NCBI RefSeq assembly: GCF_021729135.1
Contig: NZ_JAJTWW010000001.1
Span: 496,001 to 560,000 of the forward strand
Reading direction: 5' to 3'
Length of the DNA stretch: 64,000 nucleotides
Origin: Brevibacterium daeguense
Lineage (GTDB): Bacteria; Actinomycetota; Actinomycetes; Actinomycetales; Brevibacteriaceae
Under the pieces are notes generated by a model. It was not told where the DNA came from. It saw only the letters and a list, made by a program, of their open reading frames with translations, and did not search any database. The position numbers and the translations under genes are program-made. Positions 3,956-16,637 of this stretch are shown here, one piece after another; within the stretch, counting starts at the first letter, position 1; each line of letters opens with the position of its first letter.

Positions 3956-4140
3956 CGGCGGGGGCGGCTCATGGCCAGGACGATCTCCGCCGGCCGGACC
4001 CCGTGGCCCGGCACGGGCGCTGTCACCCGAGCAGGATCGGAGTAGCCGGCCGGCGCCTCGGCGGCTCACACTCGGAGGGTGGACGGGACAGGTGCGGCGG
4101 TGATGCGACCGTGAGGGAGATACGCAGCGCGGAGCGGATC

Positions 4141-5124
4141 GTGCTCGACTCACCGGAGCCGGCAGTCGTCGCGACGGGACTGCGCAAGGCGTTCGGCGGC
4201 AAGGTCGCGGTCGCCGGCGTCGATCTCACGATCCCGCGCGGAGGCGTGTTCGGGATCCTGGGTCCCAATGGAGCAGGCAAGACCACGGTCATCCGGATGC
4301 TGGCCACGCTCCTGCCGGTCGACGGAGGACAGGCCAGGGTGCTCGGCCACGACCTGCGCACCGCCGGCGGCGAGATCCGCAGAAGGGTCGCGCTCACCGG
4401 ACAGTTCGCCTCGCTCGACGAGGACCTCACGGGACGTGAGAACCTCACGCTGATCTCGCAGCTGTTCGGCTATTCCGCAGGCGAGGCGCGGCAGCGAGCG
4501 CGGGAGCTGCTCGCCGCCTTCGGGCTGCTCGATGCGGCCGACCGGCAGGTCAAGAAGTACTCGGGCGGCATGCGGCGCCGACTCGACATCGCGGCCTCCC
4601 TGGTCGTCACCCCCGAATTGCTGTTCCTCGATGAGCCGACCACCGGCCTCGACCCCCGCAGCCGCAATCAGGTCTGGGACATCGTGCGCTCGCTGGTCAG
4701 CGCCGGCACGACCGTGCTGCTGACCACCCAATACCTCGACGAGGCCGACCGGCTCGCCGATCGGATCGCCGTCATCGACCACGGCCGCGTGATCGCGGAG
4801 GGCACCAGCGATGAGCTCAAAGCGCTGATCGGGCAGGGGACTGTCAAGGTCCGGCTCGCCGACCCCGCCGACCGCCGTCGTGCCGCCGAGCTGCTCACCG
4901 CGCTGCTCGACTCCGAACCACTCCCGCGCACCGACCCGGTCGAGATCGATTTCACGGTGACCGGCGACGCTCCCGTCGCAGAGGTGCTGACCCGCTTGGA
5001 GGCAGCCGGCTTTGCGGTCACGGCCTTCTCGCTCGGCCAGCCCAGCCTCGACGAGGTCTTCCTCGCGATCACCGGTGAGCCATCCCACGAGGACGCCGAC
5101 GACAGCCGGGAGGACCCGGAATGA
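4141..5124 (+). CDS. ABC transporter ATP-binding protein, DrrA family
   Basis: ATPase subunit of an ABC-2 type exporter of the daunorubicin-resistance class. Walker A (GPNGAGKTT), the signature [10 protein letters not shown], Walker B ([12 protein letters not shown]) and the DrrA-type C-terminal domain ending in [10 protein letters not shown] are all present. The frame is open from 3913, but the extra N-terminus resembles no family member. GTG 4141 has GGAG 6 nt upstream and starts just before the ATP-binding core; GTG 4111 is the alternative. The stop overlaps the permease start as ATGA. The substrate is unknown. Next to it lies a putative GTP-derived small-molecule cluster, which makes export of that product a possibility but no more. 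Confidence 0.9.
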
Positions 5125-5945
5125 CCACCGTCCAGCCCCGGTCCGAGGTGTCCTCGGTGCTGCGCCCGGCTGCCGAGCATCCGGAACCTGCGTCACCGCT
5201 GCGCGCCTCGCTCGTCTACGCCAAGCGCGCGATGCTCAAGATCCGGCACGTGCCCGAGCAGCTGTTCGATGTCACCGTCTTCCCGATCATGATGACCCTG
5301 ATGTTCACGTTCCTGTTCGGCGGAGCGCTCGCGGGCTCCGTGGACGCCTACGTGCAGTACCTGATCCCGGGCATCTTCGCCCAGACGATCATCATGATCA
5401 CGATGTACACCGGGCTGACCCTGAACAAGGACATCGAGAAGGGCATCTTCGACCGCTTCCGGTCGCTGCCGGTCTGGCGACCCGCACCACTCGTCGGCGC
5501 GCTGCTGGGCGACCAGGTGCGCTACCTGCTCGCCGGCGCGATCACGATGGCGCTCGGGTTCATGCTCGGATTCCGGCCCGAGGGCGGCCTGCTCTCGGTG
5601 CTCGTCGCCACTGTGCTGCTGCTGGTGTTCGCGTTCGCGCTGTCATGGATGTGGACGATGATCGCCCTGCTCGTGCGCACCGAGCAGGCCCTGATGGGAA
5701 TCTCGATGTTCATCCTCATGCCGCTGGTGTTCGCCAGCAACATCTTCGTCGACCCCGCGACCATGCCGCGCTGGCTGCAGGGCTTCGTCGAGGTCAATCC
5801 GGTGAGCGTGGTGGTCACCGCGATGCGCGACGTGATGAGCGGATCCCCGGTCGCCTCGGACATCCTGCTCGTCTTCGTGTGGTCGGCAATCCTGGTTGCC
5901 GGATTCGGCCCGATCTCCATGATGCTGTACAACCGCAAGACCTGA
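5121..5945 (+). CDS. ABC-2 type permease, DrrB family
   Basis: Membrane subunit of the DrrAB-like exporter, 274 residues with about six hydrophobic segments. The cytosolic N-terminus is followed by a conserved stretch around [16 protein letters not shown], then [15 protein letters not shown] and a run of membrane helices. The [15 protein letters not shown] and [18 protein letters not shown] segments are typical of DrrB proteins. ATGA overlap with the ATPase gene indicates coupled synthesis of the two subunits. The cargo cannot be read from the sequence. Confidence 0.9.
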
Positions 5946-6029: not shown

Positions 6030-7484
6030 ATGGAAGAATCGCTGTCTGCAGCAGGGGAGTCAATGCCGGGTCGCGAACCGACGCCGGTCTGGAGCGCGGA
6101 CACGATCCTGCCGACGGCTCACGGCAGGTTCCGGATGCTGGCTCATACGGACCGAACCGGGGTCGAGCACCTCGCTCTGCTGATGGGGAATCCGGAGACC
6201 GCCGACGCTCCACTGGTCCGGGTGCACAGCGAGTGCCTCACCGGTGACGCGCTGGGATCCTACCGCTGCGACTGCGGGGAGCAGCTCGATATCTCCATGG
6301 CCCACATCGCTGCCGCGGGCTGCGGAATCCTCCTCTACCTGCGAGGTCATGAGGGCCGCGGCATCGGGCTGCTCAACAAACTCCGCGCCTACGAGCTGCA
6401 GGATCGGGGCCTTGACACCGTCGAGGCGAACGCGGCTCTCGGGCTGCCCATCGACGCCCGCGACTACCAGGCGGCCGCCGCGATGCTGCGGGCTCTGGAC
6501 TGCACGCGGATCCGCCTCCTCACAGCCAACCCCCTCAAGCAGATCGAGCTCGAGGCCAACGGCATCGAGGTCGTCGACCGGCTGCGCCCACCGGTGGCCG
6601 ACCGACCCGAGAACTCCCACTATCTGGAGACGAAGCGCTCGGGGATGAATCACGACCGTCCGAGCGATTCCGATGCCTCACCGCTGCCCGATCTCTACAC
6701 GCCGCTGGTCGGCCGCACCGAGGTGATCGCCCAGCTCGCCCAGAGCACCGACGGCTTCATCGCCGCGAACGGGGGCGATGCGGAGTTCGTGTCGGGCGCG
6801 GCCGATCGCGAGCACCTGCACCGGCTCCGGTCGCTGGCCGCCGTCGTCCTCGTGGGTGTGTCGACCGTGCGCGCCGACGATCCCAAGCTCACCGTGCGCG
6901 CGGTGCAGGGTCCCAACCCGGTCCGCGCGATCCTCGATCCGCACGGGCGCGTCCCGCTGGACAGCCACGTGCTGACCCAGCCCGACGCTCCGACCCTGTG
7001 GCTCCTCGGCGAGAGGATCCCCGTGCCGGAATCGCTCGCGTCCCACGTGACGGTTCTCCGCCTCCCGGAGACTGCCGGCCAGGCGGCACGAGGCGGGTCG
7101 TCGCGGGACGATCCGGCCGGCGATCACCCGGCACGGGGTGGCGCGGTCGAGGAGCACTGTCTGGACGTTCCTCCGGCCGTGATCCTTCAGGTGCTGGGCC
7201 GGCACGTACCCGGCACTGTCCTGGTCGAGGGCGGCGGCCGCACCGTCTCGGAGTTCCTCTCCGCGGGGCTGCTGGACCGCCTGTTCCTCACGGTCGCCCC
7301 CGTGCTCATCGGCAACGGCGTGCCGGGGCTGCGGTTCACCGGATCCGATGTGATGGCCGAGGCGCTGCGGGCGCCGTTCCGCCGTCATGTCTTCGGCGCC
7401 GACGTGTGCACCGAGTTCGTCTTCTCCGCAGCTGCCCGAGCCGCCACCCCCGGGCTGTCGGACGGGTCCACTCCGCTGAGCTGA
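6030..7484 (+). CDS. GTP cyclohydrolase II fused to a RibD-type pyrimidine reductase domain
   Basis: The N-terminal half (about residues 25-205) is a GTP cyclohydrolase II. The zinc site ECLTGDALGSYRCDC, the GTP-binding RGHEGRGIGL and KLRAYELQD with its catalytic-pocket tyrosine are all kept, so GTP opening to the 2,5-diaminopyrimidinone is expected. The C-terminal half (about 220-470) is a RibD C-terminal/DHFR-like reductase with STDGFIA, VGVSTVRADDP and LVEGGGRT. RibB and the RibG deaminase are absent, so this is not an ordinary riboflavin operon. The gene is transcribed alone from a leaderless promoter. Its last 100 nt overlap the glycosyltransferase gene on the other strand. I infer a dedicated pathway to a reduced pyrimidine or pterin compound. 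Confidence 0.88.
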   Translation: MEESLSAAGESMPGREPTPVWSADTILPTAHGRFRMLAHTDRTGVEHLALLMGNPETADAPLVRVHSECLTGDALGSYRCDCGEQLDISMAHIAAAGCGILLYLRGHEGRGIGLLNKLRAYELQDRGLDTVEANAALGLPIDARDYQAAAAMLRALDCTRIRLLTANPLKQIELEANGIEVVDRLRPPVADRPENSHYLETKRSGMNHDRPSDSDASPLPDLYTPLVGRTEVIAQLAQSTDGFIAANGGDAEFVSGAADREHLHRLRSLAAVVLVGVSTVRADDPKLTVRAVQGPNPVRAILDPHGRVPLDSHVLTQPDAPTLWLLGERIPVPESLASHVTVLRLPETAGQAARGGSSRDDPAGDHPARGGAVEEHCLDVPPAVILQVLGRHVPGTVLVEGGGRTVSEFLSAGLLDRLFLTVAPVLIGNGVPGLRFTGSDVMAEALRAPFRRHVFGADVCTEFVFSAAARAATPGLSDGSTPLS

Positions 7485-8491
7485 GGGCGGCCCGGCGAGG
7501 TGAGCGTGTCGCTGATGACCTGCGCGGTGGCCGCCCACGAGGGCAGGGTCCCGCGGCGGCGTCCAGCGATGTCGCGCAGCTCGGCCCGCCAGTCGCCATC
7601 CCGCAGCCACCGTCGGATGCCTGCTCGCCAGGCGGGCGCGTCGCGCGGGTCGAACGTGCAGCCGGCGGCGGGGGAGCCGAGCGCCTCGACGGCTCCGGTG
7701 CCGGTGGAGACGAATGCTGGGATCCCTGCTGCTCCGGCTTCCGCGACCACCAGACCGTAGGTCTCGAAGCGCGAGGGGAGCAGCAGCAGCTCCGCAGTGT
7801 CGTACAGGTCATCGATCCGGCCGCCGTCCAGCTCGCCCAGCAGGGCGATGCGGCCGGGCTCGATCACGCTCGCGATCCGGCCGCGCAGCCGGTCCGCGTA
7901 CTCCCCGTCGGCGACGGGTCCGGCGATGCGCAGCTGCCAGTCGTCGTCCTGCAGCCGTGCCAGCGCCTCGACGAGAAGCAGCTGGTTCTTCACCGGGCTG
8001 ATCGCTCCGACGGCGATCAGATCCCTGCCGTCCCGCCGTGCGGCAGCGGGGCGCGGTCGCACCCCGGGCGGCGCCACGACGACGTCGCGGCGCCCGTAGC
8101 GGGCGGTGAGGTCGCGGGCGGCCCAGCTGCTGGTGGCGATCACGGCATCCGCACCGGCCACACAGATGCGCTCTCGGGCGGCGACCCGCTCCCGGTCCTC
8201 CGCGGGGGCAGCGGCCGCCTGCGGCATGTGCATGAGCAGGACCAGGGGCCACCTGCGCCTGCCGGCGAACGCCTCGGGAACCGAGCAGCCCACGAGGCTG
8301 TCGAGCAGGACCGGGCCTTCTGCCTCCGCGACCAGCTCGACGACGGTCCGGCGCGCCGCGGGCCCGGGTTCCGGCCAGTCTCCTCGGACGCGGTGCGCTG
8401 TCAGCTCCGGCAGCTCCGCCAGCACGAACGCGTTGTAGCGGCTGCCGCCGCTGACCGCGGGCAGCTCGGGTTCGATCAGGTGAGCGGTCAC
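7385..8491 (-). CDS. Glycosyltransferase, family 4-like
   Basis: GT-B fold glycosyltransferase of 368 residues. The N-terminal acceptor half contains LLMHMP. The C-terminal nucleotide-sugar half begins at VGAISPVKNQ and carries the GT4 hallmark EX7E region around LLPSRFETYGLVVAEAGAAG. GTG 8491 overlaps the stop of the upstream PTPS-like gene as GTGA, so the genes are coupled. The last ~33 codons run antisense through the end of the RibA-reductase gene. Sugar donor and acceptor are unknown; the context suggests that a pterin- or pyrimidine-type product is glycosylated. Confidence 0.87.
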   Translation of the reverse strand: MTAHLIEPELPAVSGGSRYNAFVLAELPELTAHRVRGDWPEPGPAARRTVVELVAEAEGPVLLDSLVGCSVPEAFAGRRRWPLVLLMHMPQAAAAPAEDRERVAARERICVAGADAVIATSSWAARDLTARYGRRDVVVAPPGVRPRPAAARRDGRDLIAVGAISPVKNQLLLVEALARLQDDDWQLRIAGPVADGEYADRLRGRIASVIEPGRIALLGELDGGRIDDLYDTAELLLLPSRFETYGLVVAEAGAAGIPAFVSTGTGAVEALGSPAAGCTFDPRDAPAWRAGIRRWLRDGDWRAELRDIAGRRRGTLPSWAATAQVISDTLTSPGRPQLSGVDPSDSPGVAARAAAEKTNSVHTSAPKT

Positions 8492-8868
8492 GGGGTCAGG
8501 CGGCAGGACACCCTGGCCCGGGGGTTCTCGACGACCGTGACGGTCAGCGCGGCGAAGGAATGCCAGTCTGGGATCCCGGCGGCGATCCGCTCCGCCAGGT
8601 GCGCCGCGATGGCCTCGCTCGTCGACAGCCTCCCGGCGAAGTCGGGATGATCGTCGAGGTTGCGGTAGCGAATCCCGGAGAGCGCCTCGTCGAGCAGCGC
8701 TGAGGCCCGGCCGATGTCCATCACCACGGCGTGCTCGTCGAGCTGCTCGCGCTCGAATGTCGCCTCGACGGTGAGCGTGGCGCCGTGCAGGCCGGCTGCG
8801 GGGCCGAAGAAGTCATCAGGCAGGCTGTGGGCGATCATGGCATGGTCGCTGACGGTCAGTGAGTACAC
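8488..8868 (-). CDS. 6-pyruvoyl/6-carboxy-tetrahydropterin synthase homologue, divergent subfamily
   Basis: A 126-residue T-fold protein related to PTPS/QueD. The conserved VVMDIG and YRNLDDHPDF motifs and the C-terminal VVENPRA segment place it in the family. Active-site positions are altered. One zinc histidine (MIAHSLPD) and the first histidine of the HGH pair remain, but the pair reads HGA. The catalytic cysteine that precedes HGH is absent, and the LDH-type histidine is replaced in RYRNLDD. It may therefore bind a pterin without the usual chemistry, or use another mechanism. It overlaps the dehydrogenase gene by 13 nt upstream and the glycosyltransferase by GTGA downstream. Confidence 0.82.
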   Translation of the reverse strand: MYSLTVSDHAMIAHSLPDDFFGPAAGLHGATLTVEATFEREQLDEHAVVMDIGRASALLDEALSGIRYRNLDDHPDFAGRLSTSEAIAAHLAERIAAGIPDWHSFAALTVTVVENPRARVSCRLTP

Positions 8869-9875
8869 GGAGATACGGTCCTTTCGGGTTCATCCGACTG
8901 GGGGCGGAAGTCGATGACATGGCACACGGTCGAGGCTGCCAGTTCTGTGTTCCCGGCCAGTCCGTCCATCACCTCCGGCAACTGCTGCCGGGGCGAGCGG
9001 CCGGTCAGGAGAGCGTCGAACCGGCTGTCGCGCAGGGCGGCCAGCGCGGTCGCCATCCTCTCGCCCGTGGTCCGGCGGTTCCGCTTGCCCGCGGCCACCT
9101 GGCCGACCTGACTGGCGATGATCGAGAGCCTGCGTGCGTGGAAGTCGGCGCCCAGCGGGACCTGGGGCGAGTCGGTCCCGTACCAGGACGCCTCGATGAG
9201 GCAGCCGTCGTCGCCGGTGATCTCGAGGCCGCGGCTCAGGCCCGAGGCGCTCGCCGAGGTGTGGATGGTGATGTCGTTGTCGGTCCGGGCTGCGGCGGGG
9301 TCGCAGGCATCGAGTCCCAGCGAACGGGCCAGTTCGCGTCGGGCGGGGTTGGGCTCGAGCAGCTGCAGGCGCTGCAACGGCATGCGGGAGGCCAGGAGCG
9401 CGACGGACAGGCCGATCATCCCGCCGCCGATCACAGCGACTCGATCAGCGAAGGCCGGCGGGACCTGCCAGAGGATGTTGACGGCGGTCTCCACGGGCCC
9501 GGCCAGGACGGCCCGCTCAGTGGGCACGTCGTCGGGAATCGGGTGGAGCTCGGCGGGATCGGCCGTGTAGTGCGTGTGGTGGGGGAAGAGGCCGAACACG
9601 CGCCGGTCCCGCCAGTCCGCGGGACCGGACTGCACGACGCCGACGTTGAGGTATCCGTAGGAGACCGGGAACGGGAATTCGCCGAGCTGATGAGGAGAGC
9701 GCATGAGCTGGGCCACCTGGCCGGGCACCAGTCCCCGGTGAACCAGTGTCTCGGTGCCCTTGGAGACGCCCGTGACCAGCGTGCGCACCAGCAGCTGGTC
9801 CGCACCGGGGGAGGGGTCGGCGGTTTCGCGCCAGGTGCCTTCGCCCGGTGCGGTGGTCCAGTACTGCCAAGCCAT
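8856..9875 (-). CDS. Medium-chain (zinc-type) alcohol dehydrogenase-like oxidoreductase
   Basis: A 339-residue MDR-family protein. The N-terminal GroES-like domain contains VSKGTETLVHRG and PFPVSYGYLNVG. The Rossmann domain starts at VAVIGGGMIGLSVALLA. The usual GHE zinc motif is not evident, so zinc dependence is uncertain. It is the first gene of a three-gene unit with the PTPS-like and glycosyltransferase genes, transcribed from a leaderless start (TACGCT, 6 nt, ATG). An alcohol or sugar side-chain oxidation in the same pathway is the likely role, inferred only from context. Confidence 0.85.
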   Translation of the reverse strand: MAWQYWTTAPGEGTWRETADPSPGADQLLVRTLVTGVSKGTETLVHRGLVPGQVAQLMRSPHQLGEFPFPVSYGYLNVGVVQSGPADWRDRRVFGLFPHHTHYTADPAELHPIPDDVPTERAVLAGPVETAVNILWQVPPAFADRVAVIGGGMIGLSVALLASRMPLQRLQLLEPNPARRELARSLGLDACDPAAARTDNDITIHTSASASGLSRGLEITGDDGCLIEASWYGTDSPQVPLGADFHARRLSIIASQVGQVAAGKRNRRTTGERMATALAALRDSRFDALLTGRSPRQQLPEVMDGLAGNTELAASTVCHVIDFRPQSDEPERTVSPCTH

Positions 9876-9881
9876 GAGGAG

Positions 9882-9887
9882 AGCGTA
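9882..9887 (-). promoter_or_regulatory. -10 box TACGCT of the dehydrogenase-PTPS-glycosyltransferase operon
   Basis: On the minus strand TACGCT is separated from the ATG at 9875 by 6 nt (CTCCTC), giving a leaderless or near-leaderless transcript. The ispG promoter faces away within the same ~70 bp. Confidence 0.55.
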
Positions 9888-9929
9888 TCCCAGCGCGTGA
9901 GGCTCTCAGCTTGCACCAATCGCGCGGAG

Positions 9930-9935
9930 TAGGAT
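9930..9935 (+). promoter_or_regulatory. -10 box TAGGAT upstream of ispG
   Basis: TAGGAT matches TANNNT and lies 8 nt before an ATG at 9944 and about 60 nt before the ispG GTG. It would start a transcript at, or next to, the small leader ORF. Confidence 0.55.
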
Positions 9936-9943
9936 TGTGCACG

Positions 9944-9997
9944 ATGTATCAGCGCCCCGCCAGGGGTGAGCAGCAGACGTCGAAGGGAAACACGTGA
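9944..9997 (+). CDS. Putative 17-codon leader ORF overlapping the ispG start
   Basis: ATG 9944 follows the TAGGAT box by 8 nt, so it could be read leaderless. It encodes [17 protein letters not shown] and stops at TGA 9995-9997, which overlaps the ispG GTG as GTGA. No homologue is known to me. The precise overlap suggests translational coupling or a leader-peptide switch. It could equally be ordinary 5' leader carrying the ispG ribosome site (AAGGGA), so confidence is low. Confidence 0.35.
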
Positions 9998-11142
9998 CCT
10001 CGGTCAACCTCGGAATGCCCGCGCCTCCGCCGCCGGTCCTCGCGCCTCGCCGGAAGACCCGTCAGATCAAGGTCGGGAAGGTCGGCGTAGGCTCCGATCA
10101 CCCGGTCAGCGTGCAGTCCATGACGACCACCCCGACCACCGACATCAACGCCACCCTGCAGCAGATCGCGGAGCTCACCGCGGCCGGCTGCGACATCGTG
10201 CGAGTCGCCTGCCCGAGCGCGGACGACGCCGCCGCTCTGCCGGCGATCGCTCAGAAGAGCCAGATCCCGGTCATCGCCGACATCCACTTCCAGCCGAAGT
10301 ACGTCTACGCGGCGATCGACGCGGGCTGCGCCGCGGTGCGGGTCAACCCCGGCAACATCCGCAAGTTCGACGATCAGGTCAAGGAGATCGCCAAGGCGGC
10401 CTCCGACGCCGGGACCTCCATCCGGATCGGCGTCAACGCCGGCTCGCTGGACAAGCGGATCATGGACAAGTACGGCAAGGCCACGCCCGAGGCGCTGGTC
10501 GAGTCGGCCGTCTGGGAGGCTTCGCTGTTCGAGGAGCACGGCTTCCAGGACTTCAAGATCTCCGTCAAGCACAATGACCCCGTCGTCATGGTCCGCGCGT
10601 ACGAGCTGCTGGCCGAGCGCGGTGACTGGCCGCTGCACCTCGGCGTCACCGAGGCGGGGCCGGCCTTCCAGGGCACCATCAAGTCCGCCACCGCCTTCGG
10701 CGCGCTGCTGAGCCAGGGGATCGGCGACACCATCCGGGTCTCGCTGTCGGCTCCGCCCGTCGAGGAGATCAAGGTCGGCAATCAGATCCTCGAGTCCCTC
10801 AACCTCAAGCCGCGCAAGCTGGAGATCGTGTCGTGCCCGTCCTGCGGCCGCGCCCAGGTCGACGTGTACTCGCTGGCGGACAAGGTGACCGCGGGCCTGG
10901 AGGGGCTCGAGGTTCCGCTGCGGGTGGCCGTGATGGGCTGCGTCGTCAACGGCCCGGGCGAGGCGCGCGAGGCCGACCTCGGAGTCGCGAGCGGCAACGG
11001 CAAGGGGCAGATCTTCGTCAAGGGCGAGGTCATCAAGACAGTGCCCGAGAGCCAGATCGTGGAGACGCTCATCGAAGAGGCCATGCGCATCGCCGACGAG
11101 TCCGACATCCCCTCGGGCGCACCCGAGGTCGTCGTCGGCTGA
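9994..11142 (+). CDS. ispG: 4-hydroxy-3-methylbut-2-enyl diphosphate synthase
   Basis: [4Fe-4S] enzyme (also called GcpE) that turns MEcPP into HMBPP, the penultimate MEP-pathway step. The TIM-barrel half begins at [13 protein letters not shown]. The C-terminal domain has the cluster ligands in CPSCGR and in [11 protein letters not shown]. The length of 382 residues is normal. GTG 9994 has AAGGGA about 6 nt upstream. It belongs to the same pathway as dxr 8 kb away; the pair is usually separated only by rseP in actinobacteria. The stop overlaps the next gene as TGATG. Confidence 0.96.
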
Positions 11143-12017
11143 TGCGGCTGCTCCCGCTCCGGAGCGAGCACACGCACTGGCTGAGGGAGAAGGCCGCCGA
11201 GGATCCGGCGCAGCACGTCTTCCTCCTCAGCCTGCTGGAACTCACCAGGACCGCTGAAGTGTCCACGGCTGCGGGCACGCTGTACGGACTGTTCAGCGGC
11301 CACGATCCCGTGGCCGCCTACTGGGTGGGCGGCAGCATCATCTCCATCGGGGCGACCCCGGAGACGAATGCTCGGGTTGCGCGGATGCTCAACGTGCGCG
11401 GACGCTATCACTGCTCGCTCATCGGTGAGCACCGGGCGGTGCTGGATCTGCATCACCGGCTGGAGTGGGGCGCTCCGCGCAGCATCCGGCCGGATCAGCC
11501 GCTCATGGTCGCGAGCCGGGAACCGGAGGTCGGACCGGACCCCGGCGTGCGGGTGGGGACGATCGCCGATGCTGACGCCGCGTATGCCGCGGCAGTGGAG
11601 ATGTTCACGGAGGAGGTCGGATTCTCACCGGTCGCCGACGGCTCAGCGGGGTACTACGGCAAGGTCCGCTCGAACCTGACCAGCTGCAGCACTCTCCTGT
11701 CGATGACGGAGACAGGTCCGGACGGGAGGCCGATGCGCGACTGGCCGGCCGCTGGTTCGCCCCGCCAGGTCGTGTTCAAAGCCGATCTGGGGATCCGGTG
11801 CCGCGAGGCCGTCCAGGTGCAAGGGGTGTGGGTGCATCCGGATTTCCGCGGTCGCGGTCTGGCCGCCCCGGGCATGGTCGCCGTCACCGAGCATGTGCGG
11901 GAGCACGTGGCGCCGATCGTGAGCCTGTACGTCAATTCGTTCAATGAGCCGGCGCTGCGGTCCTACGAGCGCGCAGGGTTCTCGCAGGTGGGGCGGTTCG
12001 CCACGGTCATGTACTGA
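11142..12017 (+). CDS. GNAT acetyltransferase with N-terminal DUF4081 domain
   Basis: A 291-residue protein with an N-terminal DUF4081 region (LPLRSEHTHWL onward) and a C-terminal GNAT fold. The acetyl-CoA loop lies around VWVHPDFRGRGLA, and the tail has SLYVNSFNEPALRSYERAGF. Orthologues follow ispG throughout actinobacteria (Rv2867c in Mycobacterium), but their substrate is not known. TGATG overlap with ispG shows coupled translation and fixes the start. Confidence 0.9.
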   Translation: MRLLPLRSEHTHWLREKAAEDPAQHVFLLSLLELTRTAEVSTAAGTLYGLFSGHDPVAAYWVGGSIISIGATPETNARVARMLNVRGRYHCSLIGEHRAVLDLHHRLEWGAPRSIRPDQPLMVASREPEVGPDPGVRVGTIADADAAYAAAVEMFTEEVGFSPVADGSAGYYGKVRSNLTSCSTLLSMTETGPDGRPMRDWPAAGSPRQVVFKADLGIRCREAVQVQGVWVHPDFRGRGLAAPGMVAVTEHVREHVAPIVSLYVNSFNEPALRSYERAGFSQVGRFATVMY

Positions 12018-12037
12018 CTGCCGATCGCTTCCACCCG

Positions 12038-12079
12038 CTGACCGGCCGAGCGGCGGCGTGCGGCTTTCCGGCCGGTCAG
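12038..12079. terminator. Hairpin between converging GNAT and S4 genes
   Basis: CTGACCGGCC (12038-12047) pairs perfectly with GGCCGGTCAG (12070-12079) around a 22-nt loop. It lies between two convergent genes and has no T tract, consistent with a bidirectional GC-type terminator. Confidence 0.55.
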
Positions 12080-12089
12080 TCCTGGCCGC

Positions 12090-12512
12090 TCAGTCTTGGC
12101 CGGGGTCGAGAAATCCCCCGTGGTCGTGGGTCCGAGCGCGCAGCTTCTCCAGGGCTCTGCGGTCCTTCTTCGTCGGCCGTCCGGTGCCTCTGTCGCGACG
12201 GGGCACCCACCCGCGCAGGGCGGGGTCCGGAGGAGGAGTGAGGTCCTCGTAGCATTTCTGCGCGACAGGGGCTCCGGCCCGCGAGGCGAGCAGCCCTGTG
12301 ATGCGCAGGATCTTTTCGAAACCGGACCGGCGCACGCGCACTTCCTGGCCGATCCTGACCTTCTGCGCCGCCTTGACGCGCTGCCCGTCCACGTGGACGT
12401 GCCCGCCCCGGCAGCCGGCGGTGGCCTCGGAGCGGGTCTTGTACATCCGGACTGCCCACAGCCAGACGTCGACGCGCTGCGACTGCGTGGAATCGAAAAC
12501 CGGTTCGGGCAT
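12090..12512 (-). CDS. S4-domain RNA-binding protein (Hsp15-like)
   Basis: A 140-residue protein whose N-terminal S4 fold (RVDVWLWAVRMYKTRS through VHVDGQRVKAAQKVRIG) resembles Hsp15, which binds stalled 50S subunits. The C-terminus is basic and rich in Arg and Pro. The frame stays open farther upstream, but the ATG at 12512 has TAGACT exactly 7 nt before it and starts just ahead of the S4 domain, so I choose it. The ribosome-rescue role is inferred from the family. Confidence 0.85.
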   Translation of the reverse strand: MPEPVFDSTQSQRVDVWLWAVRMYKTRSEATAGCRGGHVHVDGQRVKAAQKVRIGQEVRVRRSGFEKILRITGLLASRAGAPVAQKCYEDLTPPPDPALRGWVPRRDRGTGRPTKKDRRALEKLRARTHDHGGFLDPGQD

Positions 12513-12519
12513 GCTGGTG

Positions 12520-12525
12520 AGTCTA
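12520..12525 (-). promoter_or_regulatory. -10 box TAGACT, leaderless start of the S4 gene
   Basis: The minus strand reads TAGACT, 7 nt, ATG 12512. This is the same leaderless geometry as at dapA, ftsK and ylxR in this window. Confidence 0.65.
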
Positions 12526-12565
12526 CTCGGAGCCGAAGCCCCGGGCCGTGGCAGCGCCGGCGCCG

Positions 12566-13276
12566 TCATTCGAGGTGCCGCAGGAATCTCTCGGGTGCGT
12601 CGAGGAACAGTTGCCAGTTCCGGACGAGGTCGAGGTCGTCGTACGACGAGGTGCGGATTCCCCAGGGTCCCACTTCGCACAGCCGGGCGCCGGGAAGAGC
12701 CGCGAGCACGGGGGAGTGGGTCGAGAGCACGATCTGGGATCCGGCTGCCGCGAGCTGGCGGAGAATTCCGATGAGCGCAAGACAGCCGGAGAAGGACAGC
12801 GCGGATTCGGGCTCGTCGAGGATCCAGAGCCCCTTGATGCCCGATCTGCTCGTGATGAATTCGAGGAATGCCTCTCCGTGACTCTGCTCGTGCAGGCTGC
12901 TCGGGCCCAGCGATTCCAAGTAGCTGAAATGCCCGTGCATCGTCTCGGCCCGCAGGAACACGCCTCGCCTGGATGCGCCGGCGCCGCGCACGAGCTGCAG
13001 GTGCTCCGCGAGGTCCGATTCGGTGCGGCGGGTCTCATGCATCGCCGCGTGAGTGCCGCCTTCGGGGTTGAGACTGAAAGCACCAGCCAGCGCCTCGACG
13101 ACAGTCGACTTGCCGGCGCCGTTGTCACCGATCAGCACGGTGATGGGACCGAGATCGAGACCGGAGTCGAGAATCTGCCGGACCGGTGCGAGAGTCGCGG
13201 GCCAGTGTCGCCGGTCCATCGGAGCCAGCGGATGCTCTTCGAGTCGCCTCACCGGCAGAGTGCTGAACTCCTCCAT
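12566..13276 (-). CDS. AAA/SMC-like ATPase
   Basis: A 236-residue ABC/AAA-type ATPase without a membrane partner. Walker A is GDNGAGKST, the Walker B-like segment is GLWILDEPESALS, and LSTHSP supplies the switch histidine. This arrangement is typical of stand-alone proteins related to RecF/OLD ATPases. ATG 13276 is used because the upstream extension is low-complexity. A CAGACT box lies 6 nt before it, so it may also be leaderless. Its substrate and partners are unknown, and nearby genes give no clue. Confidence 0.83.
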   Translation of the reverse strand: MEEFSTLPVRRLEEHPLAPMDRRHWPATLAPVRQILDSGLDLGPITVLIGDNGAGKSTVVEALAGAFSLNPEGGTHAAMHETRRTESDLAEHLQLVRGAGASRRGVFLRAETMHGHFSYLESLGPSSLHEQSHGEAFLEFITSRSGIKGLWILDEPESALSFSGCLALIGILRQLAAAGSQIVLSTHSPVLAALPGARLCEVGPWGIRTSSYDDLDLVRNWQLFLDAPERFLRHLE

Positions 13277-13346
13277 GGCCTCAGTCTGACAGCCGGGCCA
13301 TCGTGGCCGCACATCGCTGTCCCGCGGCGCACCAACTGTGCCGGCC

Positions 13347-14270
13347 TCAGCCGCCGAATTCGACGCTCGGCTTCGGGCGGGTGTCGACGGAGAGCCGGAA
13401 CACGTCCGGACGCGCATAGTGGCCGACCGGATCGAAGTCGAAGACTGTCCGGCTGAGGGCTGAAACGTCGATGTCAGCGGTGAGGATCGCCTCGGCGTCG
13501 TAGACGGGACCGGCCAGAGCAGTTCCGCTCGAATCGTAGATCGCGGAGCCGCCTCGGATCAGCCAGCCGTCGGCATTCGGCTCCAGGACGCCGGCATAGT
13601 CCTCCCCGTAGTCCTCGGCTCGGATCGCCTGGCAGGCCGAGATCACGAAGCACCGGCCCTCCATCCCGATATGCGCCATCGTGTGCTGCCAGGAGTCACG
13701 ATCGTCGACCGTCGGCGCGCAGTACACCTCCACGCCCTGGGCGTACATCGCCTGCCGCATCAGCGGCATGTAGTTCTCCCAGCAGATCACCGCACCCGTG
13801 CGGCCTGCCGGGGAATCGACGACCGGCAGCGTCGAACCGTCGCCGAAGCCCCAGATCAGCCGCTCGCCGCCGGTGGGCATGAGCTTGCGGTGGTGCCCCA
13901 CCGGCCCGCGTTCCGGGTCGATGTGCACGGCGGTGCAGTACAGCGTCCTGCCCGCCCGCTCGATGATGCCGAGAACAGTGAAGACGCCGGTGCGGGCGGC
14001 GGCCTCGGCGATCGCCGACAGCTCCGGCCCGTCGAGGGTCACGGCATTGGCGAAGTACTTCTCGAACTGGTCCCGGCCCTCGTCCGTGCGCCGTCCGACC
14101 GGAGCGCCGAAGGTCAGGCCCTTGGGATACGTCCCGAGGGTCGCCTCGGGGAACACGGCGAGCTCGGCGCCGGTGGCAGCGGCCTCGGCGAGCTTCGCAC
14201 AGATCTTCTCCGCGGTGGCGGCGGCGTCGAAGGGGACGGATCCGATCTGGACTGCTGCGACCGTGGTCAT
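13347..14270 (-). CDS. Nitrilase (carbon-nitrogen hydrolase)
   Basis: Hydrolyses a nitrile to the carboxylic acid and ammonia. The Glu-Lys-Cys triad is visible in FPEATLGTYPKG, HRKLMPT and VICWENYMP; the WEN after the cysteine is typical of true nitrilases rather than amidases. It has 307 residues. The ATG overlaps the stop of the HMG-CoA-lyase-like gene as ATGA, making it the third gene of a coupled operon. The shared operon suggests it feeds a carboxylate into the CoA-transferase/lyase route, or that a nitrile is the first substrate. Confidence 0.9.
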   Translation of the reverse strand: MTTVAAVQIGSVPFDAAATAEKICAKLAEAAATGAELAVFPEATLGTYPKGLTFGAPVGRRTDEGRDQFEKYFANAVTLDGPELSAIAEAAARTGVFTVLGIIERAGRTLYCTAVHIDPERGPVGHHRKLMPTGGERLIWGFGDGSTLPVVDSPAGRTGAVICWENYMPLMRQAMYAQGVEVYCAPTVDDRDSWQHTMAHIGMEGRCFVISACQAIRAEDYGEDYAGVLEPNADGWLIRGGSAIYDSSGTALAGPVYDAEAILTADIDVSALSRTVFDFDPVGHYARPDVFRLSVDTRPKPSVEFGG

Positions 14271-15199
14271 GACTGCTCGCTTTCCGCCGCCGGGATCACC
14301 CAGTCGAACGCCTGTGCTCGTGACCGGGCGCCCTGTGCCGCCTTCGACGTGCTGCGCTGGCCGAGCTCGGAGGTCACCTGCTCGCCGAGCTCGACGATGC
14401 GCGCGAAGACCTCCGGGGTGAGCCACTCGGGTTTGGTGGCGAACAGGATGTCCTCGCTGGAGGTGTTGCCCGAAGCACCCGGGGCGAACGGGCAGCCGCC
14501 CAGCCCCCCGAGAGCTCCGTCGACCATCCGGGCGCCGGCGCCGATCGCCGCGAGCGTGTTGGCCACGCCCAGGCCCCACGTGTCGTGGCCGTGGAAGACG
14601 ACCCCGTGGTCGGGCCGGGCGCGCGCGGTCTGGGCGATGAGATGGGCGACCTCGGTCGGATCCGCCTGGCCGAGGGTGTCGCAGATGACGGAGTCCGTGC
14701 AGCGCTCCACGCGCGGGTCCTGCAGGATGCCGAGCACTCGGGCCGGGTCGACCCGGCCCTCGAAGGGGCAGGTGAAGGAGGTGGCTAGCGTGAGCTGGAG
14801 CTGCGCACCCGCCTCGGCGGCGATGTCGAGGGCGCGGGGGAGCGCGGCCAGCGACTCCTCGGTGGTGCGCCCGATGTTGGCCCTGTTGTGGGAGTCGGTC
14901 ACCGACAGGCAGTACTGCATCCGGGTGACACCGGCGGCGACCGCCTTCTCGACATTGCGCGGCGTGGCGGTCCAGATCCAGCAGCGCGCGAGCTCCTCCG
15001 GGCTGAGCTCAGCGACGACGTCCATGGTGTTCGCCATCGGCGGCACCAGATCAGGCCGCGCCATGGAGCCGATCTCGAGTTCGGACACCCCGAGTTCGAG
15101 CAGGTCGCGGATGAGCTGGACCTTGGTCTCGGTGGGCAGCACCCCGCCGGTGAGCTGCAGCCCGTCGCGCAGGGTGACATCTCGCAGGACGGCGGTCAT
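14267..15199 (-). CDS. Hydroxymethylglutaryl-CoA lyase family protein
   Basis: DRE-TIM metallolyase of 310 residues. The RDVTLRDGLQ motif carries the catalytic arginine and metal aspartate. FHGHDTWGLGVAN carries the metal histidines. GGLGGCPFAPGASGNTSSED includes the cysteine-containing HMG-CoA-lyase loop. The enzyme should split a 3-hydroxy-3-methylacyl-CoA, such as HMG-CoA or citramalyl-CoA, by retro-Claisen cleavage. ATGA overlaps on both sides tie it to the CoA-transferase upstream, which would activate its substrate, and to the nitrilase downstream. Confidence 0.9.
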   Translation of the reverse strand: MTAVLRDVTLRDGLQLTGGVLPTETKVQLIRDLLELGVSELEIGSMARPDLVPPMANTMDVVAELSPEELARCWIWTATPRNVEKAVAAGVTRMQYCLSVTDSHNRANIGRTTEESLAALPRALDIAAEAGAQLQLTLATSFTCPFEGRVDPARVLGILQDPRVERCTDSVICDTLGQADPTEVAHLIAQTARARPDHGVVFHGHDTWGLGVANTLAAIGAGARMVDGALGGLGGCPFAPGASGNTSSEDILFATKPEWLTPEVFARIVELGEQVTSELGQRSTSKAAQGARSRAQAFDWVIPAAESEQS

Positions 15200-16473
15200 C
15201 TCTTCTCCTCCGTGGTTCGGGTGCCTGCCATGACCTCAGCGATGGTGTCGGCGTCGACGCCCGCGCCCTGCAGGACCTCGACGGTGTGCTCGCCGAGGTC
15301 GGGCCCGAGGTGGTCGATGTCGACCGACCGGCCGTCGAGGACCGGGGTGATGCCCGGGAATGCGACTTCGCGCACCACCTCGGCGCCGGTGTCGACGTCG
15401 AAGTGCTGGAGCATGTTGCGGGCCCGGTACTGCTCGTCGGCGAGGATGTCCTCGGCAGTGTAGATCGGTCCGGCCGGCACCTCAGCGGCCTCGAGCGCTG
15501 CCAGCGCCTCCTCGGGACTGCGCCTGCGGGTCCATGCGGAGATCGCCTCGTCGAGCTCGTCGCGGCGCTCCCAGCGCTGCTGATTCGTCTGCAGGCCGGG
15601 GTCCGCGGCGAGGTCGGAGCGGCCGATGACCGCCATGTAGCGGCGGAAGATGCCGTCGCCGTTGCCCGCGATGACGATCGACTTCCCGCCCAGGCACGGA
15701 TAGGCGTTGGACGGCGCGATGCCCTGGGTGCGCCCGCCGGTGCGCGTCCGGCGCACGCCGAACGCCGAGTAGTCGGGGATCAGCGATTCCATGACGGAGA
15801 ACATCGCTTCGTGGAGCGCCACGTCGACCGTGCGCCCGGAACGCGGATCGAGGTTCGAACCGGCAGCGGCGCCGGACCCCGCGGCAGCGGTCCGGCTGCG
15901 CTCACGGTCGAACAGCAGCATGCACGCGCCGAATGCCGCCTGCATCCCCGCGATCGAGTCGCCGATCGACACGCCGACCCTGCTCGGCGGGCGGTCGGGA
16001 TCGCCGACGAGTTCGCGGAAGCCGCCGTACGCCTCGGCGACGGCCGCGAAACCGGGACGGACCGAGAGCGGGCCGGTCTGTCCGAAGGCGGAGATGCGGA
16101 CCAGGATGACCTCGGGGTTGAGCTGCTCGAGCACCTCGGGGCCCAGACCCCACTTCTCCAGAGTGCCCGGCCGGAAGTTCTCCAGCACGATGTCGGAGGC
16201 GGCGACCAGCTGCCTGGCCGCGCGCAGGCCGGCCGCGGAGCGCAGATCGAGGGCCACCGACTTCTTGTTGCGGTTGATCGTGCGGTACAGCATCGAGGTG
16301 GTGCCGCTGTGCAGGCGCCAGCCGCGCAGCTCGTCACCGGTGCCGGGCCGTTCGACCTTGACGACCTCAGCACCGAAATCGGCCAGCATCCGGCCGGCGG
16401 TGGGGGCTGCGATGTAGTTGCCGAGCTCGAGGACTCGGATCCCGGCAAGCGGGAGAGACGAGCGGTCAGTCAT
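15196..16473 (-). CDS. Family III CoA-transferase (CaiB/BaiF type)
   Basis: Moves CoA from a donor such as succinyl-CoA to a free acid. The 425-residue protein opens with [19 protein letters not shown]. The conserved [13 protein letters not shown] and [11 protein letters not shown] follow, as does the segment before LVENFRPG-type [12 protein letters not shown], where the catalytic aspartate is expected. It is the first gene of a three-gene unit with a lyase and a nitrilase, joined by ATGA overlaps. A weak CACACT box lies 6 nt before the ATG. The acid it activates is unknown; 3-hydroxy-3-methylglutarate or citramalate would fit the next gene. Confidence 0.9.
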
Positions 16474-16637
16474 GTCGGCAGTGTGGCACAGGTCTCCGCG
16501 ACCTGCTCGCGCGTCTCAGCCATCGGCCGGGTCGGCGTCCGACAGCACGCGGCCGGGCCGGCGCCCGAGGGCATCCGGCGGCAGGTGCGCCGGTGATAAG
16601 GTCCGATGGGATCATCGAGTCACTAGGAGAAGCCCTC

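Follow-up and report, generated by a model that had tools for sequence, protein, structure and literature searches.

In bacterial riboflavin synthesis, deamination precedes reduction. The cyanobacterial biopterin glucoside pathway starts from GTP cyclohydrolase I and uses sepiapterin reductase. It combines a protein of the PTPS family with a glycosyltransferase (GT), as does the gene cluster described here; unlike the cluster, it is not known to include GTP cyclohydrolase II (GCHII) or a RibD-type reductase. A 2006 study reportedly treated three GCHII proteins of Streptomyces coelicolor, and we know of no role for SCO6650, the structure of which has been solved. SCO6655 of S. coelicolor is listed as a GCHII (PMC2853524). 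Creatininase-annotated bacterial BrbF converts the formylamino intermediate to the deformylated ribosylaminopyrimidine DARoPP (PMC9478397).

We analyzed a cluster in a 64,000-nucleotide stretch of the Brevibacterium daeguense genome (the window). Conversion of GTP to DARoPP would be shared with the archaeal-type riboflavin start, in which ArfB or bacterial BrbF performs the deformylation. In contrast to that route, genes for a deaminase, lumazine synthase, and riboflavin synthase are missing from the cluster, which continues to an MDR dehydrogenase, a T-fold protein, and a GT; the window GCHII also retains Tyr105, and a separate deformylase would not be needed.

Gene arrangement and protein families

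The preliminary description of this locus had proposed a GCHII-reductase fusion facing a coupled unit of an MDR dehydrogenase, a degenerate pterin-synthase fold, and a GT4 glycosyltransferase, and the searches reported here agree with each assignment. The fusion lies on the forward strand (6030..7484; 484 amino acids [aa]) and, in a single frame, matches Pfam GTP_cyclohydro2 (aa 24 to 185; 7.4e-60) and RibD_C (aa 232 to 431; 4.6e-33). On the reverse strand are genes for a GT4-type glycosyltransferase (7385..8491; 368 aa; Pfam Glycos_transf_1, 1e-25), a PTPS-fold relative of SCO6650 (8488..8868; 126 aa; Pfam PTPS, 2.1e-20), and an MDR-fold dehydrogenase (8856..9875; 339 aa). The GT and PTPS frames overlap by 4 bp and the PTPS and MDR frames by 13 bp, while the GT and fusion genes are convergent and overlap by 100 bp. 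A terminator search at the locus returned no hits, and no Rfam element reached the gathering score between 5500 and 10500. One promoter-like match was observed, within the PTPS gene. The upstream ABC transporter (4138-5945) was not counted as a member; 16/101 loci contain ABC ATPases from the same broad family, at varied positions, and none was found at 6500-16500 of the locus from a genome of the same genus (G596).

The GCHII half of the fusion retains the three zinc cysteines (Cys54, Cys65, and Cys67) as well as Tyr105, Asp126, and Arg128 (E. coli numbering), in keeping with the complete zinc and GTP motifs claimed earlier. The RibD_C half shares reductase motifs with the genome's own RibD, residues that we presume to function in reduction, although it falls short of the NCBIfam thresholds set for named reductases. 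By these sequence features, the fusion is a GCHII (RibA) joined to a RibD-type pyrimidine reductase, and both activities are predicted. RibB, the RibG deaminase, RibH, and RibE had been reported as absent. This is true of the neighborhood, since no RibB, RibD deaminase, RibH, or RibE is linked among the cluster genes, but not of the genome, in which DHBP synthase (RibBA), DMRL synthase (RibH), a lumazine-binding riboflavin synthase, and a RibD deaminase-reductase are encoded together on contig C14. Because this set lies on another contig, the fusion is a paralogue.

The MDR protein had no Pfam hit at E<=0.001, and its NCBIfam matches were weak MDR matches, all below the cut-offs. Its AlphaFold model (pLDDT 94.6) has an MDR fold, and its Foldseek neighbors include HpsP, butanediol dehydrogenases, and sorbitol dehydrogenases. 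Zinc MDR alcohol dehydrogenases contain a catalytic zinc Cys and a His-Glu motif. Neither is found in the MDR protein, which instead has an invariant S38-x-G40-x-E42 and G74-Y75 at these positions.

A single-sequence search of the PDB with the window PTPS protein returned 3d7j (SCO6650) as the sole match (1.9e-28), and a profile of 19 relatives matched QueD (4ntk, 1.2e-14), placing the protein in the same fold family as PTPS-I, -II, and -III (QueD, biopterin, and folate; COG0720). In the alignments, Ala occupies the positions of the QueD catalytic Cys and third zinc His, and R-Y replaces the QueD Asp-His, which we take to be functional residues. The C-terminal Glu of the family (E114), presumably the pterin anchor, is invariant in 19 aligned sequences. 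When compared with the class motifs given in PMC5041015, the stretch FGPAAGLHGAT of the window protein contains neither the PTPS-I/QueD motif CxxxHGH nor the PTPS-II motif CxxxxxHGH, having no Cys and HGA in place of HGH, nor the PTPS-III motif ExxHGH, since A-G-L precedes HGA. Identity as the queuosine enzyme QueD was rejected because its motif is absent. The protein fits what we define in this analysis as the SCO6650 group, with its FGPA-x3-HGA motif, chain-long similarity, and MDR and GT neighbors. SCO6650 itself is near-identical to the PTPS protein of an S. parvulus locus (L137) that holds MDR, GT, Met-type GCHII, and creatininase genes. The gene set supplies a context for SCO6650 and for the Met-type GCHII of Streptomyces. 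The window differs from the SCO6650/SCO6655 system in that its GCHII is fused to the reductase and keeps Tyr105, and in that no creatininase, methyltransferase, LPG_synthase_TM, or CDP-alcohol gene is linked.

Conservation and fuller versions of the gene set

The preliminary description had called for a survey of five-domain co-occurrence in actinobacteria, and conserved co-occurrence was observed. An MDR gene was present in 141/141 and a GT4-type gene in 137/141 fetched PTPS loci (sets of 101 and 40 loci, in which PTPS is present by construction and at least three loci are counted twice: L152=L076, L166=L132, and L187=L134). At least nine fusions, from four families, were recognized in 396 Actinomycetota genomes among the matches listed at E<=1e-50 and spanning both domains, and 9/9 adjoin MDR, PTPS, and GT genes. 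As judged from these sequence comparisons, conservation of the set exceeds chance; it extends from Actinomycetota to Pseudomonadota and to one Nannocystaceae metagenome-assembled genome (MAG). At E<=0.001, 91/396 Actinomycetota genomes contained PTPS relatives, some of which may be noncluster proteins. Streptomyces, Microbacterium, and Palleronia have copies of the cluster on replicons annotated as plasmids. No paper treating the gene set as a pathway was found in open-licence PMC full text, which accords with the earlier statement that no characterized pathway combines these activities.

The sampled loci are dominated by Streptomyces and Arthrobacter. Loci L038-L057 are the best 20 of the 91 genomes with PTPS relatives, and L149-L188 represent 40/58 places, leaving out nine already sampled, one fragment, and eight Streptomyces-family genomes. 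Loci L058-L137 are the best 80 of at least 573 relatives picked by one peptide pattern, FGPAx[RG][LTV]HG[HA], and PTPS motif counts in them are therefore biased. Since a family was scored as present wherever a phmmer search with cluster seeds placed it within the DNA fetched for a locus (some stretches stop at contig ends), GT and reductase calls denote family membership, not orthology.

GCHII was linked in 45/101 and 29/40 loci and the reductase in 42/101 and 18/40, and many Arthrobacter-type loci hold, of the families sought, MDR, PTPS, and GT only. A search of 18 further cluster genomes without linked GCHII found no fusion; as judged by frame length, 14 of them have a GCHII match in a separate open frame of <350 aa (one partial). 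The gene set is usually larger, with a methyltransferase, an LPG_synthase_TM protein (47/101 and 34/40 loci), and a CDP-alcohol phosphotransferase (CDP-OH_P_transf; 48/101 and 34/40 loci). The same-genus genome G596 has this fuller set, with the GT fused to the methyltransferase, together with a Polyketide_cyc2 lipid-transport-type protein. In the window genome, a CDP-alcohol homologue (38% identity) lies away from the cluster, the methyltransferase is unlinked to the cluster, and a search run without a positive control did not find an LPG_synthase_TM homologue.

Tyr105 and the creatininase-family neighbor

After removal of identical sequences and of two controls, the comparison covered 81 distinct GCHII domains from the clusters; Tyr105 is lost in 43 and kept in 38. 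A creatininase-family gene accompanies 42/43 of the Tyr105-lost domains versus 1/38 of those that keep it; the 43 domains form one clade, and the link does not reflect repeated events. Because loss of Tyr105 coincides with the creatininase-family gene, this comparison suggests that the intermediate is DARoPP, and the gene set predicts that the creatininase-family neighbor is a deformylase. The Streptomyces creatininase scored best to MftE of mycofactocin (133.9 bits; cut-off, 172) and reached 36.6 bits with ArfB (cut-off, 180). The reductase is linked in only 3/17 creatininase-bearing loci of the 40-locus set.

Proposed pathway and alternative readings

We consider it somewhat probable that the cluster encodes a dedicated non-riboflavin pathway starting from GTP. 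The computed support consists of the domains, the GCHII and reductase active-site residues, the conserved linkage, and the paralogy to riboflavin genes. This reading is favored by the constancy of MDR and GT in PTPS loci, the neighbors of all nine recognized fusions, the separate rib set, the intact residues, the Tyr105/creatininase link, and the G596 cluster. Counted against it are the loci in which GCHII and reductase are unlinked, the 18 genomes without a fusion, the restriction of the Tyr105 link to one clade, the MftE match of the Streptomyces creatininase, and the LPG_synthase_TM homologue not found in the window genome by a search without a positive control. Taken together, the findings suggest an orphan conserved pathway made of known enzyme families, and a set traveling with spare early vitamin B2 enzymes suggests an unknown GTP-derived, sugar-decorated molecule. 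The GCHII half of the fusion would convert GTP to DARoPP, which the RibD_C half would reduce. We infer the product and all later steps (MDR, PTPS, and GT): the MDR enzyme would oxidize a side-chain hydroxyl, the PTPS-fold protein would bind the product and rearrange or ring-close it, the GT4 enzyme would attach a sugar, and the methyltransferase would methylate the product. Where the set is fuller, the CDP-alcohol phosphotransferase may act with the LPG_synthase_TM protein to attach the product to the membrane or move it across.

GTP cyclohydrolase I generates a 1-deoxypentulose by Amadori rearrangement. The cluster could reach the same compound by a redox detour, in which the reductase reduces ribosyl C1' and the MDR enzyme oxidizes C2'; ring closure by the T-fold protein would give dihydroneopterin phosphate, which would then be methylated and glycosylated. 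The sorbitol and butanediol dehydrogenases among the nearest folds of the MDR protein, the retained E114, and FolB, which adjoins the cluster in 12/12 fetched loci of family f19, are consistent with this detour. We nevertheless regard it as unlikely, given that FolB linkage is seen in one family only and that GTP cyclohydrolase I is present in 21/21 cluster genomes tested, which makes the detour dispensable for folate synthesis. Replacement of GTP cyclohydrolase I in folate synthesis, hinted at by FolB, is likewise unsupported in these chosen genomes.

A glycolipid head group is a doubtful alternative. Here, the CDP-alcohol phosphotransferase would transfer a GTP-derived polyol to a lipid, the GT4 enzyme would glycosylate it, and the LPG_synthase_TM protein would move it. 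The frequency of the CDP-OH_P_transf and LPG_synthase_TM families, their presence with Polyketide_cyc2 in G596, and the CDP-alcohol homologue of the window genome argue for it; the missing LPG_synthase_TM match in the window genome (searched without a positive control) and the many Arthrobacter-type loci with MDR, PTPS, and GT only among the families sought argue against it, and the family names are the basis on which these roles were guessed.

It is quite improbable that the set forms a cyclohydrolase I-independent pterin route, in which GCHII would open GTP, the reductase-dehydrogenase pair would replace the Amadori step, and ring closure would fall to a T-fold protein that lacks the usual catalytic residues; the methylated, glycosylated, and often membrane-placed products would be a new pterin glycoside or glycolipid class of actinobacteria and proteobacteria. 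Least probable is a spare riboflavin supply that merely raises flux beside unrelated neighbors: the GCHII and RibD_C residues look functional, but the fusion has no deaminase, while the bacterial route deaminates before reducing, and riboflavin back-up was rejected as the main reading because the rib set is present elsewhere in the genome and the nine fusions found adjoin MDR, PTPS, and GT genes.

Architecture and active sites of the gene unit

Open frames for all four genes lie at the positions given in the preliminary description. The gene at 6030-7484 on the forward strand contains both Pfam domains of the proposed fusion, a GTP cyclohydrolase II (GCHII) domain joined to a RibD_C reductase domain. 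Facing it are the expected three overlapping genes on the opposite strand (9875 down to 7385), which encode an MDR-fold dehydrogenase, a PTPS-fold protein, and a GT4 glycosyltransferase (GT). Immediately upstream of the fusion, on the same strand, Pfam identifies a DrrA-type ABC ATPase and an ABC-2 permease (4138-5945).

The zinc and GTP motifs of the GCHII domain had been called complete, and alignment revealed that Cys54, Cys65, Cys67, Tyr105, Asp126, and Arg128 (E. coli numbering) are all retained. The reductase domain shares D-G, L-R, D-x3-L-x2-R, and E-G-G motifs with the genome's own RibD, the last of these resting on few alignment rows. The reductase also carries an insert around GDHPARGGAVEEHCLD (about 7080-7170, forward strand) that is absent from the fusion of a same-genus relative (locus L149), the main comparison here, as few other alignment rows reach that point.

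A Pfam search with the MDR protein at E<=0.001 matched no family. Its AlphaFold model (mean pLDDT, 94.6; input alignment of 45 sequences) was used in a structure search, and this predicted model resembles HpsP, butanediol dehydrogenase, and sorbitol dehydrogenase in the PDB. Zinc MDRs use Cys and His-Glu as ligands; at these positions, alignments of this protein's own family contain invariant S-x-G-x-E and G-Y.

Alignments of the PTPS protein show that two zinc histidines (H14 and H28) and the C-terminal Glu are kept, that Ala occupies the third His (HGA) and the QueD catalytic Cys position, and that R-Y replaces the QueD Asp-His. In a single-sequence search, the only PDB match was the S. coelicolor relative SCO6650 (3d7j), which reportedly lacks both zinc and PTPS activity. 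The window's PTPS protein does not match the PTPS-I, -II, and -III motifs given in PMC5041015.

Relationship to the housekeeping riboflavin genes

The riboflavin enzymes had been described as absent. This holds for the neighborhood of the fusion and fails for the genome (3.56 Mb, 98% complete), in which RibD (deaminase plus reductase), a lumazine-binding protein, RibBA, and DMRL synthase are grouped on contig C14. The absence is therefore only local, making the fusion a paralogue of the housekeeping riboflavin genes and strengthening the case for a different function. The RibD_C family is expanded in this genome, with fifteen matches. In a tree of GCHII domains, 17 fused forms fall into two groups, requiring two label changes; the domain from the genome's own RibBA is placed close to one group, its branch being long and unsure. 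By frame length alone, a GCHII match in an open frame of <350 amino acids, distinct from the cluster-linked gene, occurs in 14 of 18 cluster genomes.

Conservation of the gene set

A PTPS match at E<=0.001 was found in 91 of 396 Actinomycetota genomes. A first set of 101 loci combined the window, 20 loci from those 91 genomes, and 80 named loci obtained by scanning genomes (the best 80 of 573 relatives matching one peptide pattern). A second set of 40 loci, sharing at least three with the first, was drawn from 394 class-level genomes searched without a peptide pattern. The MDR gene is present in 101/101 and 40/40 loci and the GT gene in 97/101 and 40/40, bearing out the suggestion of conserved co-occurrence across actinobacteria. 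In the first set, these are accompanied by a methyltransferase (50 loci), a CDP-alcohol phosphotransferase (48), LPG_synthase_TM (47), GCHII (45), reductase (42), creatininase (27), and FolB (12); in the second, by LPG_synthase_TM (34), the CDP-alcohol gene (34), methyltransferase (31), GCHII (29), reductase (18), and creatininase (17).

Among the actinobacterial carriers are Arthrobacter, Streptomyces, Nocardioides, Salinispora, and Microbacterium; those from other phyla include Roseovarius, Thauera, Marinobacter, Ancylobacter, and one Nannocystaceae MAG. Copies in Streptomyces fungicidicus, Microbacterium sp. SGAir0570, and Palleronia sp. LCG004 are annotated as plasmid-borne. A mobilizable plasmid of 59 kb from Microbacterium (NZ_CP027930.2) has CDP-alcohol, MDR, PTPS, GT, methyltransferase, LPG_synthase_TM, and RibD-family genes close to fluoride transporter and recombinase genes, with no GCHII in the stretch shown. 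A distant family, f19 (L046-L057), has the order reductase-MDR-PTPS-GT and a PTPS protein with intact HGH; FolB occurs in 12/12 fetched loci and an acyltransferase in 11/12. A gene labeled YceI-like from sequence appearance was seen in four proteobacterial loci, with a weak match in Actinoplanes (L105, L113, L117, L120, and L125).

With the fusion as the query, at least nine carriers, including the window's genome, were recognized among 396 phylum genomes by matches spanning both domains, among the matches listed. The remaining eight fall in families f10, f16, and f21 and are kin to the window at phylum level only. MDR, PTPS, and GT genes adjoin the fusion in all nine carriers recognized. Counting the phylum PTPS search matches alone, and with the fusions being at least nine, PTPS matches occur in 7/9 fusion genomes versus 84/387 others (Fisher P = 0.0007). 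In genome G028, a further contig carries GCHII and reductase as separate genes together with LPG, GT, and PTPS genes.

A single run in the same-genus genome G596 (L149) comprises MDR, PTPS, a GT4-methyltransferase fusion (634 amino acids; L149 10153-12057, forward strand), LPG_synthase_TM, the GCHII-reductase fusion in convergent orientation, a CDP-alcohol gene, and a Polyketide_cyc2 protein. GT and methyltransferase also share one frame in Marinobacter (L105 and L120). In the window's genome, a methyltransferase homologue lies on contig C34 (40% identity to the Microbacterium one; no Pfam family at E<=0.001) and a CDP-alcohol homologue on contig C6 (38% identity); two queries, run with no positive control, found no LPG_synthase_TM homologue. 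The window seems to hold a reduced, partly dispersed version of the gene set.

Tyr105 loss and a candidate pathway from GTP

Among 81 distinct cluster GCHII domains, the Tyr105 equivalent is lost in 43 (Met, 30; Leu, 6; His, 5; Gln, 2). A creatininase-family gene is present in 42 of these 43 loci, the exception being L181, and in 1 of 38 Tyr-keeping loci (Thauera; weak, 76 bits). The S. coelicolor GCHII SCO6655, which has Met at this position, reportedly stops at the formylamino (FAPy) nucleotide. As shown in PMC9478397, BrbF, an annotated creatininase, deformylates this nucleotide to the deformylated ribosylaminopyrimidine (DARoPP). Together, these activities most simply suggest that the creatininase gene would restore the step lost by GCHII and that the pathway would need DARoPP. 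Three findings weaken this reading. The Tyr losers form one clade (98/85), indicating one change kept together, so that the Fisher value for the creatininase link exaggerates how independent the cases are. The best family score of the Streptomyces creatininase is to mycofactocin MftE and its score to ArfB is weak, each falling below the respective cutoff, and a reductase is linked in only 3/17 creatininase-bearing loci of the second set.

As the best explanation we favor, by a modest measure, a dedicated, non-riboflavin pathway starting from GTP; our confidence in it is slightly lowered by the family scores of the creatininase and by how seldom the reductase is linked. Judging from domain identity and residues, the GCHII half of the fusion would convert GTP to DARoPP, which the reductase half would reduce. 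The MDR protein may then oxidize the product and the T-fold protein bind it and rearrange its ring or chain, with methylation and glycosylation possibly following. In a bolder version, C1' reduction and C2' oxidation would mimic the Amadori step of GTP cyclohydrolase I, and the T-fold protein could then close a dihydroneopterin ring. GTP cyclohydrolase I is present in 21/21 cluster genomes chosen, which counts against a folate role.

As the preliminary description had supposed, no account of the gene set as a pathway was found in full-text searches of open-licence papers in PMC. The set is a conserved, undescribed combination of known enzyme families. Expression data on S. coelicolor genes offer hints: in PMC2853524, SCO6655 is among genes anticorrelated with predicted flux, the majority of which are up in stationary phase, and a mycelial-stage comparison table in PMC3610822 lists the hypothetical SCO6652, a putative cluster gene, with values of 0.8, 4.3, and 4.1.
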